Shown here: positions 31,602 to 36,957 of the stretch, one piece after another
Layout of the letters: each line of letters opens with the position of its first letter
Position numbering within the stretch: the stretch's first letter is position 1
Assembly: GCA_016839555.1 (NCBI GenBank)
Contig: JAEOUA010000007.1
Coordinates: forward strand, 124,001-188,000
DNA length: 64,000 nt
DNA from: Promethearchaeota archaeon
Lineage (GTDB): Archaea; Asgardarchaeota; Lokiarchaeia; Sigyniarchaeales; SOKP01
Direction of reading: 5' to 3'
The notes under the pieces: generated by a model
Databases searched by the model: none
What the model saw: only the letters and a program-made list of their open reading frames with translations
What the model was told of the DNA's origin: nothing
Program-made: the position numbers and the translations under genes

Positions 31602-32450
31602 TTAACTTGATGGTCTTTTGCTCCGAATTTCAGTTTTAGGAATATCTTTAAATTTTTGAATTGTTTTTTCTAATTTTACCTTTTGCTCTTCTAATAAATT
31701 TTTATCTTTTGCTAATTTATCTCTTTCTCGTTTGATTATATTTTTTTCATCTTCAATTCTACGATTTTCTTTTTCTAATTGTCTCTTTTCATCTGCCACA
31801 TTTGATTTTTCTCGTGAAATATCTTTAATAATTCTGTCTTTTTTATCCTCTAAATCCTTTATATCAATTGTTAATTGATCTCTCTCATCTTTTAGATTAT
31901 TTATTTTTCTTTGCCAATCTCTTGCTTCATTTTTTAATTTAGAATTATCTCCTCTTAATTTTTTGATTTTATCTTCTTCTTTCTTTCGAGTTTTTTCAAG
32001 ATCTTTTCTTGCATTTTTAAGGTCGTCTTTTAATTGTGCTAGTTTATCTTTTTCATCTTTTAAATCTTTGAATTCATCATCTAATTGTTCTTTCTTTTTT
32101 CTTAACATATCTTTAGTATTTTGAATTTTATCTTTTTCTTTTTCTAGATTCATTTTTTGATTTTCAATGTTATTCTGCATATCTTGTATATTATCTTTTA
32201 TATCATCCTGCTTTTTTAGCATGTTTTTCATATCTAATTCTATAGATTTTCTCTTATTTTCGAGATCTTCAATATTGGTGTTGTATTTCTGAATTTTTTC
32301 GATAGTGTTCTCCCACTCTTCACGTTCTTTTTTAAGCTTATTTCTTTCCTTTTTAAGTTTTTGAAGAAGTTTTTTACTGGGAAGAGCTCTCTCCTTCTCG
32401 ATTGGAGTTTTTTCTTTTATTTGATATTTATTTGGTGTTTTTTCTTGCAT
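31602..32450 (-). CDS. Long coiled-coil protein, divergent from the ubiquitin locus
   Basis: About 282 residues, nearly all Lys/Glu/Asp/Arg-rich heptads from residue ~30 to 270 (for example KEKDKIQNTKDMLRKKKEQL), so a long parallel coiled coil. The track starts at a TTG (32477), but AGTGAAGAAAAGT precedes the ATG at 32450, giving MQEKTPNKYQIKEKTP, which I prefer. No enzymatic motif, signal or membrane segment is seen. Head-to-head placement with the ubiquitin-like gene could mean shared control. Such proteins are common structural or scaffold proteins in Asgard genomes. The role is unknown. Confidence 0.7.
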   Translation of the reverse strand: MQEKTPNKYQIKEKTPIEKERALPSKKLLQKLKKERNKLKKEREEWENTIEKIQKYNTNIEDLENKRKSIELDMKNMLKKQDDIKDNIQDMQNNIENQKMNLEKEKDKIQNTKDMLRKKKEQLDDEFKDLKDEKDKLAQLKDDLKNARKDLEKTRKKEEDKIKKLRGDNSKLKNEARDWQRKINNLKDERDQLTIDIKDLEDKKDRIIKDISREKSNVADEKRQLEKENRRIEDEKNIIKRERDKLAKDKNLLEEQKVKLEKTIQKFKDIPKTEIRSKRPSS

Positions 32451-32598
32451 ACTTTTCTTCACTATATTCTTATACAAAATAATAGAATTTATTTCTTTAG
32501 CAAATTCATGTTTAAAAAAAAACTCATTTATATAGTTTAATTTGTATGTGTGTATTAATAAAAATAGTACTCAATTAAAAATAAGAGGTTTATATAAA

Positions 32599-32967
32599 AT
32601 GAGTTTTGATGAGGAATTTGATGAGGAATTTGACGAAGATCTTGGTGGTCCCTCGGAAAAGGCTCCAAGTAAGAAATTTAAATCGAAAACCCCAGAAATA
32701 AAAGGACCTTCCGGTGGAAAAAAGATTTCCCTCTATTTTACCTCTACAGTAGGTCCAGGAGAAAAGAAACAAAAACTTATGGTTGACAATGCTAATCTTG
32801 TTGATGCAATTAAGGAGACAGTGGGAAATATTTTCGGATTAGACCCTAATGACTTTCATTTATCTTCTGGTGGAGTTACTATGGAAGAATCAAGCCCCTT
32901 GAGCGATTACAATGTAGATGATGGAGATGAAGTATTACTCATTCCTAGCTCAACAGCAGGTAAATAA
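32599..32967 (+). CDS. Ubiquitin-like modifier protein
   Basis: A 122-residue protein with the start set at MSFDEEF. AGAGG lies nine bases upstream, while the track start at 32542 adds an unlikely stretch. Residues 1-42 are acidic, Gly/Ser-rich and probably disordered. Residues ~43-117 form a beta-grasp domain: KISLYFTSTV, KQKLMVDNANLVDAIKETV, then PLSDYNVDDGDEVLLIP, which matches ubiquitin's LSDYNIQKESTLHLVL. The end is SSTAGK with no di-glycine, so conjugation would need the JAMM protease to trim the Lys and expose a single Gly, or the protein acts unconjugated. It heads the run of E1, E2, JAMM and RING-like genes. Confidence 0.88.
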   Translation: MSFDEEFDEEFDEDLGGPSEKAPSKKFKSKTPEIKGPSGGKKISLYFTSTVGPGEKKQKLMVDNANLVDAIKETVGNIFGLDPNDFHLSSGGVTMEESSPLSDYNVDDGDEVLLIPSSTAGK

Positions 32968-33077: not shown

Positions 33078-34304
33078 ATGATAAAAGAATCTGATTTTTT
33101 TAGTGAAATGTTAACCTCAGAAGAACGAGAGCTATATGATAGACAATTCCGTTTAGAAGGGTGGTCTCAAAAGGTCGTTAAGAATTCTCGAGTGTTAATT
33201 ATAGGTATTGGGGGTTTAGGGTGTGAGATAGCTAAAAATCTTGCAATGCTTGGAGTTGGTCATTTAGACTTAGTTGATTTAGATGTTATTGAGTATTCTA
33301 ATTTAAATAGGCAATTATTATTTGCTGGAGCTAAATTGGGTCAGCCGAAAGCCATAGTTGCCGCTGAAAAATTAAAAGAAATAAATCCCAAAATAACTAT
33401 AAAAGCATATCACTCTTCTTTAGAAAGATTAGATCCAATTATTTATAAAAAAGCGGATGTCGTTATTGGCGGACTAGATTCGATGAACGCTCGACTTAAC
33501 CTAAATGCCCATTGTATACGATTTGGAAAACCACTTGTTGATGGAGGTGTAGCTGGATATCATGGACATATGTATACTGTATTTCCATATGTGAATGCAT
33601 GCTATGAATGTAATCCATTGCCTGTAGGTGAAATTGATGACATGGCAGCATGTACGGTGGTCGGCATACCTCGTAAACGTATACATTGTGTATTTAAAGG
33701 TGATATGGCATTTAAAGAAAAATTTGAGCGAGATCCCAATCCGAAGGATATTAATGATATAAAATTTATTCAAAAAGAAGCAAATATATTAGCTGAGAAG
33801 TATGATTTTCTCCCTAAATTCACCAAATCCGATATTTTACAGATTATAGATAGGCATGATCCGGGCATTATCACAATAAATGCCTTAATATCGGCGATGG
33901 AGTCCCATGAGGCTGTAAAAATAATACATTGGATAAACGGACATAAAGCTTTGGGGAGACCAGTGACATCATATGTAGTTTTTAATGCTATGACTATGAA
34001 ATTTTACCATATTGAAAAAAAAAGAAATCCCGAATGTCCTCAATGCGGAAATAATGTAAAAAGAGTAAAAATACAAATAAGAAAGACTTCTCCATGTGAA
34101 AATATTATAAAACTTTTACTAAATAATGGATTTGAATTAGATCCCGATTACGAGCCAATTTTAACCACAATGGATTTTAATAATATCAAAGTAGTGGATT
34201 TGGATAAAACACCGATTGAAAATGATCTTAGGAATTTTGACCTTATAACGGCTGTTGGCTTTAAGAATTTCGGCGAGATTTTTATTACATTAAATTTAGC
34301 ATGA
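33078..34304 (+). CDS. Ubiquitin-activating enzyme E1-like protein (UBA3-like)
   Basis: A 408-residue E1. The adenylation domain has VLIIGIGGLGCEIAKNL near residue 40, DLDVIEYSNLNRQLLF near 70 and VVIGGLDSMNARLNLN near 130. Zinc cysteines are CYEC at 175/178 and CPQC near 322. The likely thioester Cys192 lies in AACTVVGIPRKRIHC, closely following the MCTIASMPRLPEHC region of eukaryotic UBA3. Residues ~330-408 after the zinc pair look like a ubiquitin-fold domain of the kind that recruits E2. It therefore resembles the catalytic subunit of eukaryotic heterodimeric E1s more than bacterial MoeB/ThiF. It activates the modifier encoded upstream by ATP and hands it to the E2 encoded downstream. Confidence 0.92.
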   Translation: MIKESDFFSEMLTSEERELYDRQFRLEGWSQKVVKNSRVLIIGIGGLGCEIAKNLAMLGVGHLDLVDLDVIEYSNLNRQLLFAGAKLGQPKAIVAAEKLKEINPKITIKAYHSSLERLDPIIYKKADVVIGGLDSMNARLNLNAHCIRFGKPLVDGGVAGYHGHMYTVFPYVNACYECNPLPVGEIDDMAACTVVGIPRKRIHCVFKGDMAFKEKFERDPNPKDINDIKFIQKEANILAEKYDFLPKFTKSDILQIIDRHDPGIITINALISAMESHEAVKIIHWINGHKALGRPVTSYVVFNAMTMKFYHIEKKRNPECPQCGNNVKRVKIQIRKTSPCENIIKLLLNNGFELDPDYEPILTTMDFNNIKVVDLDKTPIENDLRNFDLITAVGFKNFGEIFITLNLA

Positions 34305-34403: not shown

Positions 34404-34931
34404 ATGAGTTTAAGAAGCACGAGGATATCTCAAGATTTTGCGGCATTAAAAAAAATGATAAAAAACGGAACTATAGTCCAATTAAAACCTTGGGATAAAA
34501 AAAACAAGAGTATAGACCATCTTAAGGTTACCATTGAAGGACCAAAAGGAACTGCATATGAGGGGGGATTATTTAGGTTGGAAGTAAAATATCCTCCGCA
34601 ATATCCTAAAGTTCCTCCTTTTCTAAGATTATATACCCCTATTTGGCATCCAAATTTCTGGCCGAAACCCCATGAATATAAAGGGCAGAGAAATATTTGT
34701 TTAGCGTTGATTGATCCCTCATTAATTGGCAAAAAAGGGGGTTGGTCTCCTTCAAAAACTATTGTTACTGTGATCAATGCTATTATTGCGATGTTAAATA
34801 CTCGCGGAAAATATTTTAATCCCACAGATGTTTATAATAAAAAAGCTGCTTTAGAATCTATGAATAAGCGGGATTATTTTGAGAAAAAGGTTAAACATCT
34901 TGTAAAAAAATATGCGAATAAAAAGTGGTGA
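34404..34931 (+). CDS. Ubiquitin-conjugating enzyme E2-like protein
   Basis: A 175-residue UBC-fold protein. The N-terminal helix MSLRSTRISQDFAALKKMI is followed by the sheet containing GPKGTAYEGGLFRLEVKYPPQYPKVPP, a classic E2 signature. His82-Pro-Asn84 is the HPN motif. The active Cys99 is in QRNICLALI, then GGWSPSKTIVTVINAIIAML. The HPN-to-Cys spacing is about seven residues longer than in most eukaryotic E2s because of FWPKPHEYKGQ. It accepts the modifier from E1 as a thioester. It starts 100 bases after the E1 gene with AAGTGAAATT as SD, and twelve bases separate it from the JAMM gene. Confidence 0.94.
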   Translation: MSLRSTRISQDFAALKKMIKNGTIVQLKPWDKKNKSIDHLKVTIEGPKGTAYEGGLFRLEVKYPPQYPKVPPFLRLYTPIWHPNFWPKPHEYKGQRNICLALIDPSLIGKKGGWSPSKTIVTVINAIIAMLNTRGKYFNPTDVYNKKAALESMNKRDYFEKKVKHLVKKYANKKW

Positions 34932-34943
34932 GGAGAAAGGTAG

Positions 34944-35750
34944 ATGGATGAGAATCTAAAAAGAGATTCAATTAAAGAAACATTAAAAAAAAAAGTAAGA
35001 GAGCAATTAAAAGAAGAGCTCAAGAAAGAACTAAAACAAGAGCTTTTGGATGAAATTTATCAAGAATTAATGCAAGAAGAGATCGAATTCAAACAAGAAA
35101 TAACCTCAACCTTTAAAAATAAAATTGATAAAGGGAAATCTATTCAAAAAGCAGAAATGATAAAAGCACCCCAAAAAGTACAACAGATTCAAATTTCTAT
35201 AAAAGCAGTATTAAAAATGACAACCCATGCCTTAAAATATGCAAATAAAAATATACCACGAGAAAACTGGGTGGAGGTCATCGGATTGTTGGCAGGTAAA
35301 GAAAAAGATAACATTCTCCATATTAAGAATGCATATCCAATTGGGCATGGCAATGCAATTCATGTACAAATGGATGAGCGGAGAAATAAAAGAACTGGGC
35401 ATATTAAAGCATATGAAGAGAGTAGAAAAAGAAATTTATTTATTTGTGGATGGTATCATTCTCATCCCTCTTATGGGTGTTTTATGTCAGACGAAGATAT
35501 ATATACCCAAACCGAATATCAGAAACATTGGGAAAAAGCTGTAGCCATAGTGGTTGATCCTTATGAAATAGACGGGACTTCCTATGGATTCCAGGTATTT
35601 CGATGTGATTTAAAAACTCAAAAATGGTATTCCTTACCCTTTGAAATGGAAGAATCCTTAAATGTAAGCTTATTGCCCAAAATTTTAGATTTTGTAAATC
35701 CTATTGTTGATGGAGAAGCATTATTCTTAGAATATGATGAGGAATCATAA
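34944..35750 (+). CDS. JAMM/MPN+ metalloprotease, Rpn11-like deubiquitinase
   Basis: 268 residues. The N-terminal ~70 are a charged helix or coiled coil (REQLKEELKKELKQELLDEI). The C-terminal MPN domain has the full zinc-protease set: Glu111 in VEVIGLLAG, His172 and His174 in YHSHPSYGCF, Ser182 and Asp185 in MSDEDI (HxHx7SxxD). The wording is close to Rpn11's WYHSHPGFGCWLS. In archaeal ubiquitin loci this enzyme trims the modifier precursor and removes it from targets. The start ATG follows GAGGAGAAAGG and lies twelve bases after the E2 stop, so the two are co-transcribed. Confidence 0.93.
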   Translation: MDENLKRDSIKETLKKKVREQLKEELKKELKQELLDEIYQELMQEEIEFKQEITSTFKNKIDKGKSIQKAEMIKAPQKVQQIQISIKAVLKMTTHALKYANKNIPRENWVEVIGLLAGKEKDNILHIKNAYPIGHGNAIHVQMDERRNKRTGHIKAYEESRKRNLFICGWYHSHPSYGCFMSDEDIYTQTEYQKHWEKAVAIVVDPYEIDGTSYGFQVFRCDLKTQKWYSLPFEMEESLNVSLLPKILDFVNPIVDGEALFLEYDEES

Positions 35751-35812: not shown

Positions 35813-35818
35813 GGTGAT
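35813..35818 (+). promoter_or_regulatory. SD site deciding the ATT start of the membrane RING-like gene
   Basis: GGTGAT, a full SD core, five bases (TTTCA) before ATT 35824-35826. No ATG, GTG or TTG occurs in this frame between the upstream TGA (35815) and the ATG at 35953, so the placement argues for ATT initiation. Confidence 0.5.
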
Positions 35819-35823
35819 TTTCA

Positions 35824-36957
35824 ATTAAAAAAAGTTATTTTATTCCTTTAATCATAAGTTTCATCATTGGATTTATTCATGGAGTATTAATAGAGCCATC
35901 TTTTAATCTCTTTATTTCCTGGATTTTAATTGGGTTTTGGGTTATCTTTTCTATGAAAAGTATAGCTAAAATTAGAAAATATCGGCAATTTAATTCCCCT
36001 CATAATACCTCATTTTTTATTTTAGGGATCAATACAATTGGATTATTTTATTACTATACTAGCTTTTATACAGAATTAATTAATTGGGAATTATTTCAAG
36101 AAATTCAGAATTTTACTTTTTTTAATGCGTGGATCCTTATTTTCTCGCTTCCTTATTTAGTGTATGGACTATATTCCCTCTTTAAATGCATAAAAAAATA
36201 TCATGTAATATACATATATAAAGTTAAATCCATCAATACTCGAAAATTTATAGTCTTTTATTCTGTTTTGATTTTCACAGCAAATATAATCTTTCTAATT
36301 ATTCTTTTATATGAAATTGAAATTCTTTTTTTTACTCCTTTAATTAATTCTCCCGGACTAATTTATATCTTCTATAATTTTTTTATTTTTGTTTTGATTA
36401 TTTATGCAATTGCTAAGAAAAGAACAACTATTTCAGATATTTCACCTGAATTAATAGCACAGCGAAGGGCTCAAGTAGAATCGGTTCAATCAGCACCCAT
36501 TAGATCAGCACGAAGGGCACCCTCTAGTAGAGCCTCATCCTCTAGTAGATCTCAAAGAACAATGTCTACCACAAGATCAAGAACTACTCCAAAAGTGTAT
36601 AGACCGAAAACACAAAAAGCGCGGTCAAAATTAAGTACTCAACAAAAGAAGCAAATTTTTGAAAAAATAAAAAGCATGAAACCAAAAACCACGATGCTTA
36701 CACTAGATGATTTTAAATGCATCTTTTGCTTTAATCTTCCAGAATATCCAAAAGACAAGGGAAGGGGAATAGTTCTTTGCCCAAAATGTAATTATCCTGC
36801 TCACGCTGATGAGTTTAAAGATTGGCTTAAAAATTCGAATTTATGCTCTCGATGCAGTGCAGAATTACCTGCTTCTTATAAAAGAAATCCAAAAACTGTT
36901 TCAGTGAAATTTTATAGTAAAGTCATCCAATATTATAAGAAAAAAGAAAAATTGTGA
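35824..36957 (+). CDS. Membrane-anchored RING-like zinc finger protein, candidate E3 ligase; inferred ATT start
   Basis: The track gives 334 residues from 35953, but the frame continues upstream with hydrophobic segments (YFIPLIISFIIGFIHGVLI, FISWILIGFWVIFSM). GGTGAT sits five bases before an ATT at 35824, giving 377 residues. Order: about six membrane helices (1-205), a Ser/Arg-rich linker (~210-290, RRAPSSRASSSSRSQR), and a C-terminal zinc finger CxxC-x16-CxxC-x4-H-x13-CxxC (FKCIFCFNL, LCPKCNYPAH, LCSRCSAEL). This is the prokaryotic RING-like pattern found in archaeal ubiquitin clusters. It follows the JAMM gene by about 75 bases on the same strand, so it is the likely E3 of the system, facing the cytoplasm from the membrane. 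E3 activity is inferred. Confidence 0.75.
   Translation: MKKSYFIPLIISFIIGFIHGVLIEPSFNLFISWILIGFWVIFSMKSIAKIRKYRQFNSPHNTSFFILGINTIGLFYYYTSFYTELINWELFQEIQNFTFFNAWILIFSLPYLVYGLYSLFKCIKKYHVIYIYKVKSINTRKFIVFYSVLIFTANIIFLIILLYEIEILFFTPLINSPGLIYIFYNFFIFVLIIYAIAKKRTTISDISPELIAQRRAQVESVQSAPIRSARRAPSSRASSSSRSQRTMSTTRSRTTPKVYRPKTQKARSKLSTQQKKQIFEKIKSMKPKTTMLTLDDFKCIFCFNLPEYPKDKGRGIVLCPKCNYPAHADEFKDWLKNSNLCSRCSAELPASYKRNPKTVSVKFYSKVIQYYKKKEKL

Follow-up and report, generated by a model that had tools for sequence, protein, structure and literature searches.

Introduction

The archaeal ubiquitin operon is usually presented as a soluble cascade of E1, E2 and a small RING protein. The E1/E2/srfp cascade of Caldiarchaeum was shown to work in vitro (Hennell James et al., PMC5654768), and in the RING of its srfp the register of C3/H4 is shifted by two residues and there is an additional cysteine, C3B (PMC5654768). 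The survey of Asgard ubiquitin and ESCRT genes by Hatano et al. took IPR018611 as its E3 marker (PMC9192718). The family reported here would therefore have gone uncounted there, and the passages found do not describe such a protein. An Asgard membrane E3 is also undescribed in PMC10936438, PMC7015854 and PMC13328587. We found no prior description of the protein; most subscription papers and preprints were outside the search, so an earlier account is not excluded.

The window analyzed here is a stretch of 64,000 nucleotides from a Promethearchaeota archaeon. A preliminary description, made from the letters alone, had placed at 35824-36957, directly after a JAMM gene, a protein with about six membrane helices, a Ser/Arg-rich linker and a C-terminal finger with seven obvious zinc ligands, and had suggested a membrane E3 parallel to the ER-associated E3s of eukaryotes. 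It asked for comparison of an AlphaFold model with RING domains, prediction of membrane helices and a search for the same fusion beside other Asgard E2 genes. The idea was to be given up if the finger modeled as a zinc ribbon unrelated to RING and homologues were found away from ubiquitin genes.

Results

The membrane RING gene is the last gene of a ubiquitin operon

The gene was found at the end of a Ub-E1-E2-JAMM operon, all of it on the + strand. The features of the locus are as follows.

32599..32967, + strand: ubiquitin-like modifier, C-terminus -STAGK (PF00240 above cut-off)
33078..34304, + strand: E1-like ThiF-family activating enzyme (PF00899, E=3.7e-60)
34404..34931, + strand: E2 conjugating enzyme that has HPN, the catalytic Cys and, as E3-binding loop 7, WSPS (PF00179, E=1.3e-24)
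34944..35750, + strand: JAMM/Rpn11-like deubiquitinase (PF01398, E=9.3e-17)
35813..35818, + strand: putative Shine-Dalgarno GGTGAT, 5 nt ahead of ATT, read from the sequence
35824..36957, + strand: membrane RING-like protein, 377 aa, probable ATT start (open frame, full-length Asgard homologues)
35836..36414, + strand: six predicted membrane helices (AlphaFold helices, hydropathy and positive-inside charges over 30 homologues)
36415..36624, + strand: Ser/Arg/Thr-rich, mostly disordered basic linker, residues 198-267 (pLDDT and net charge)
36709..36870, + strand: predicted divergent RING finger, residues 296-349, ligands C299, C302, C319, C322, H327, C341 and C344

The JAMM gene ends at 35750, leaving a gap of 73 bp, and the next gene past the membrane RING gene codes for glutamine synthetase on the opposite strand. 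The E3-facing loop of the E2 was WSPS in 56 of 61 loci and WSPS/T in 58 of them. The ubiquitin-like ORF was listed from TTG 32542 and has an internal ATG at 32599. The operon ubiquitin terminates in -STAG (-STAGK in the window), not in -GG; many Asgard operon ubiquitins (loci L033-L102) stop exactly at that glycine, and others bear a short tail, which could be removed by the JAMM protease. A long coiled-coil protein is encoded at 31602-32477 on the - strand, divergent from the operon.

The frame of the membrane RING gene has no stop between 35818 and the terminal stop at 36955-36957, and gives 377 aa when translated from 35824. Upstream of the Met codon at 35953 it contains no ATG, GTG or TTG. 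A start at 35824 is plausible, because the alignment of homologues begins at residue 1 and ATT is also the start-aligned codon in relatives from two genera (L005 and L006); from these comparisons, ATT at 35824 is the probable start codon. GGTGA was found upstream of the start in most homologues. Two other possibilities were rejected: ATG 35953 would cost TM1 and part of TM2, both of which are aligned in homologues, and an upstream frameshift (one extra T near 35818, leading to a GTG/TTG start) is unneeded, since ATT is common to the relatives.

The protein has a multi-helix membrane domain and a basic linker

The protein was composed of about six membrane helices, a Ser/Arg/Thr-rich linker and the C-terminal finger. 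By a simple hydropathy threshold, the window protein has five hydrophobic segments and many homologues have six. The full-length AlphaFold model (30 homologues, mean pLDDT 77.8) contained six long helices within residues 3-197 and a folded C-terminal domain, and the predicted membrane helices correspond to residues 5-23, 29-47, 62-79, 102-122, 140-162 and 179-197. The pLDDT of the linker was below 50 for most of residues 201-267, and its residues 223-267 carry a net charge of about +13. Over 30 homologues, the loop net charges from the N terminus onward were +2.5, -0.4, +1.4, -1.8, +4.0 and -1.8, followed after the last helix by +3.5 in the juxtamembrane part and +13 in the linker. From these alternating charges, both ends of the protein, including the linker and the finger, are predicted to be cytoplasmic. 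The membrane domain gave no significant fold or profile match in PDB (Foldseek and PDB profiles) and no useful match in Pfam, and an NCBIfam search of the protein gave no match.

The gene, its position directly after the JAMM gene, the helices and the linker proposed in the preliminary description were thus all borne out: the frame is open with full-length homologues and invariant ligands, and hydropathy, AlphaFold helices and loop charges agree with a multi-helix domain.

The finger resembles RING domains

The pattern proposed for the finger, CxxC-x16-CxxC-x4-H-x13-CxxC, was found exactly, from C299 to C344. Its seven ligands were invariant in both a 30-sequence and a 44-sequence alignment, which argues against a chance pattern. 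At the eighth position, Glu330 was present in 68 of 69 sequences, as was the adjacent Asp329; one sequence (L060) has Ala330 but keeps Asp329, and another (L033) has Asn329 but keeps Glu330. Since eight-ligand Asgard RINGs carry Cys or His at the position aligned with E330, the simplest candidate for the eighth zinc ligand is Glu330, or else Asp329, with zinc binding itself inferred. I300 and W334 were invariant in the 30 operon homologues and in the 44-sequence alignment; the residue after the first RING cysteine and the helix tryptophan are RING positions for E2 contact and the core. A basic linchpin after the last ligand was not present in the 30-homologue alignment, where the residue is mostly Ser, Asp or Asn, and Ser stands between C7 and C8 instead of the usual Pro.

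The AlphaFold domain model of residues 268-377 (44 diverse sequences, pLDDT 85) had the RING strand-strand-helix order. When it was compared with PDB by Foldseek, the best 50 matches were all RING/U-box or RING-like, including TRIM37, RNF4, CHIP, RING1B, RNF8, HRD1, RBX1, GATOR2 and IFT-A, at a best E of only 5.7e-3 and a probability of 1.00. In sequence-profile comparison, the best PDB match was the C-terminal RING-like finger of IFT144 (E=0.0018), which to our knowledge is not known as an E3; RING-H2 E3s followed at E 0.05-0.6, with the RINGs of RNF38, RNF24 and RNF165 matched. None of the curated Pfam RING cut-offs was reached by the window protein; zf-RING_16 gave 13.8 bits against a cut-off of 27.4. 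Other Pfam resemblances were weak (Zn_ribbon_15 and DZR) or very weak (zf_UBZ, over 13 residues).

The tie of the finger to accepted RINGs holds at the level of profiles and is transitive, via the Asgard eight-ligand RINGs. The membrane finger aligned with these at 98.2% probability in hhalign, and their profile, run on the whole genome, picked up the window protein at E=1.5e-11. The same profile matched RNF24, AMFR/gp78 (7e-9) and Arkadia at 1e-8 to 1e-9, and HRD1 at 1e-6. In hhalign, plain zinc ribbons scored 22.8 or less and single RINGs 30-52; the top-scoring decoys of the set proved to be family members or RING proteins, and true ribbons reached up to 22.8. A zinc-ribbon reading of the finger was rejected on the structure search together with these decoy scores, so this ground for giving up the earlier idea did not arise. 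Judged by profile and model, the finger is a divergent RING belonging to the RING superfamily.

The membrane RING accompanies the operon E2 across Asgard archaea

The family search found full-length relatives of the membrane RING protein in most genomes. Among 30 retrieved loci, the order E2-JAMM-membrane RING recurred on one strand, with two exceptions (L013 and L029) in which the E2 is beyond the contig end. A scan of GTDB-species contigs gave 70 loci, all Asgard by record title, from MAGs whose names carry Loki-, Hel-, Sif-, Sigyn-, Borr-, Prometheo-, Hod- or Heimdall- labels. In these loci the membrane-type genes adjoin Ub/E1/E2/JAMM genes, save those at contig ends; in one (L081) the membrane RING gene lies 5.5 kb beyond the JAMM gene on the same contig, with a Ub gene adjoining. 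The helices, the S/T/R-rich linker and the finger were retained in Borr-, Hod- and Heimdallarchaeia, though the membrane part hardly aligns.

Co-occurrence was counted in 228 genomes of the phylum, with thresholds of E <= 1e-18 for the finger and E <= 1e-38 for the operon-type E2. The finger was present in 98 genomes, the E2 in 102 and both in 96. Of the 96, 90 had the two genes on the same contig and in the same orientation, the finger always downstream (median 1.66 kb). In a genome with the finger and no E2 (G023), the finger is 0.8 kb from the contig end, and in one with the E2 and no finger (G008), the E2 adjoins a cut-off membrane domain of the membrane RING family. In a genus of the same family (g2), the membrane RING is absent and the sole E2 is a second, distant one. 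The Fisher P for co-occurrence was 4e-54 with the kinship of genomes ignored; it overstates the significance because the genomes are not independent, yet the linkage recurs in many families. The search for the same fusion beside other Asgard E2 genes thus succeeded, and homologues away from ubiquitin genes were not found, contig-end loci aside. This second E2, which shares about 40% identity with that of the operon, is widespread and is present in operon-less genomes too, such as those of g2.

Other RING proteins of Asgard archaea

The Asgard eight-ligand RINGs share the pattern CxxC..CxxC-x4-H-x2-[C/H]-x3-W..CxxC. They comprise proteins of about 180 aa, vWA-RING proteins and coiled-coil RING proteins, and have the same finger as the membrane family, with Cys or His where the latter has Glu. 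Unlike it, they have no membrane domain and are not tied to the E2 operon, except for the coiled-coil RING in some Lokiarchaeota. There, a coiled-coil protein of ~690 aa with a C-terminal eight-ligand RING is encoded upstream of Ub (L034, L035, L036, L038, L043, L044 and L048). Since only 7 of the 46 operon loci with sufficient upstream DNA contained it, the RING-type protein that constantly accompanies the E2 is the membrane RING.

The genome of the window encodes further RINGs. A 713-aa RING-bearing frame (G000:C1:393428), unlinked to the operon, is probably a relative of the coiled-coil RING protein, and two other frames combine a vWA-like N-terminal part with C-terminal RING-like fingers (G000:C8:79699, L002; G000:C12:366538, L003). 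In four loci (L095, L098, L099 and L100), a second Ub gene is followed by a soluble finger paralogue of 206-233 aa, which lacks membrane helices and whose N-terminal part is basic and S/T/R-rich; as read from these sequences, one Loki genus has a second pair of Ub and RING genes. The finger gene also occurs in tandem (L091, G149:C100:21498-22228), and no membrane part was detected in the second copy.

Discussion

We consider it probable, though well short of certain, that the window protein is a RING-type E3 that is embedded in the membrane and belongs to the Asgard ubiquitin operon. The gene, its helices, the RING-superfamily finger, the operon linkage and the E2 co-occurrence are computed. 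About six helices would anchor the protein in the cell membrane with both ends cytoplasmic, and the RING finger would be carried on the long flexible basic linker. The finger, inferred to bind zinc with Glu or Asp as the eighth ligand, would recruit the operon E2~Ub via the usual RING surface (I300, the helix residue W334 and loop 341-344) and promote Ub transfer to membrane proteins or membrane-proximal substrates; E2 binding, ligase activity and the substrates are likewise inferred. The adjacent JAMM protease would mature the modifier and/or reverse the conjugation. This reading is favored by the operon with Ub, E1, E2 and JAMM, the E2 co-occurrence, the RING-like model and profile ties, the invariant I300 and W334, the WSP(S) loop of the E2, the positive-inside topology and the soluble paralogue beside a second Ub gene. 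It is weakened by the presence of only seven classical ligands, the missing linchpin, Ser for Pro, the unmet Pfam cut-offs, the modest Foldseek E of 5.7e-3, IFT144 as the best PDB profile match, and the other RINGs of the genome, including the 713-aa relative of the coiled-coil RING; there is no biochemistry.

The main rival is a non-catalytic membrane anchor or adaptor, whose RING-like finger docks the E2, the JAMM protease or another RING without activating E2~Ub. RING-like fingers of GATOR2 or IFT-A subunits serve as structural modules, and the IFT144 and GATOR2 matches, the weak zf-RING_16 match, the non-canonical eighth ligand and the missing linchpin would all suit such a role, as would the second, eight-ligand RING protein encoded in some operons. 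That coiled-coil RING, however, is present in only 7 of 46 loci and the membrane RING is the constant E2 partner; moreover, the E2-facing I300 and W334 are invariant, and several known E3 RINGs lack the linchpin, which is not universal. As I300 and W334 are conserved while the linchpin Arg and the C7-C8 Pro are not, we judge an active E3 to be probable and the anchor unlikely, without dismissing the latter.

Operon linkage and membrane location would equally suit a membrane receptor, whose Ub-binding finger reads the mark and passes modified membrane proteins to ESCRT or Cdc48, and the faint zf_UBZ similarity over 13 residues could be cited in its support. The RING fold and the profile relatives of the finger are, however, E2-binding ligase domains, and we find this quite improbable. 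Least credible, to the point that we would be surprised by it, is an unrelated membrane protein with an ordinary zinc ribbon that is linked to the operon for other reasons: the weak Zn_ribbon_15 and DZR matches speak for it, but plain ribbons score far under RINGs in hhalign, the best 50 matches of the domain model are without exception RING/U-box or RING-like, and the gene co-occurs with the operon E2 across the phylum.

Should the RING protein that constantly accompanies the E2 in Asgard archaea indeed be a membrane protein, ubiquitin would have been at work on a membrane before there were endomembranes, which would bear on how ER-type membrane E3s and the ubiquitin-ESCRT link arose. We regard it as possible, though we would lean slightly against relying on it, that an integral-membrane RING E3 was already standard in the ubiquitin operon when Loki-, Hod- and Heimdallarchaeia last shared an ancestor; membrane Ub tagging, as membrane-protein quality control or sorting to ESCRT, would then predate eukaryotic endomembranes. 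The proposal is directly testable, since the operon, the E2 and the finger are small and expressible.

Three known systems can be compared with the protein. The srfp of Caldiarchaeum subterraneum is likewise the RING protein of an archaeal Ub operon, with a spacing that resembles the CxxC-x4-H of the window finger; this comparison rests on the description in PMC5654768, not on the srfp sequence. Whereas srfp is small and active in vitro, the window protein has 377 aa, about six membrane helices, a long linker and Glu/Asp as the putative eighth ligand, and thus does not match the small soluble RING type. The RING-like fingers of GATOR2 and IFT-A (zf-RING_16 and Zf_2nd_IFT121) share the CxxC..CxxC-x4-H-x2-[C/H]-x3-W spacing, but the subunits that bear them are scaffolds of the WD40/coatomer-like type and not Ub-operon membrane proteins. 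HRD1, gp78/AMFR and Doa10/MARCH6 have no detectable similarity to the membrane domain of the window protein, and homology of the whole proteins is not shown; at most it works like them. The parallel with ER-associated E3s drawn earlier holds for the architecture, a multi-helix membrane domain with a cytosolic RING on a linker, for which the six helices and the positive-inside charges of the window protein meet the HRD1/MARCH-type criterion, and this shared architecture is probably convergent.
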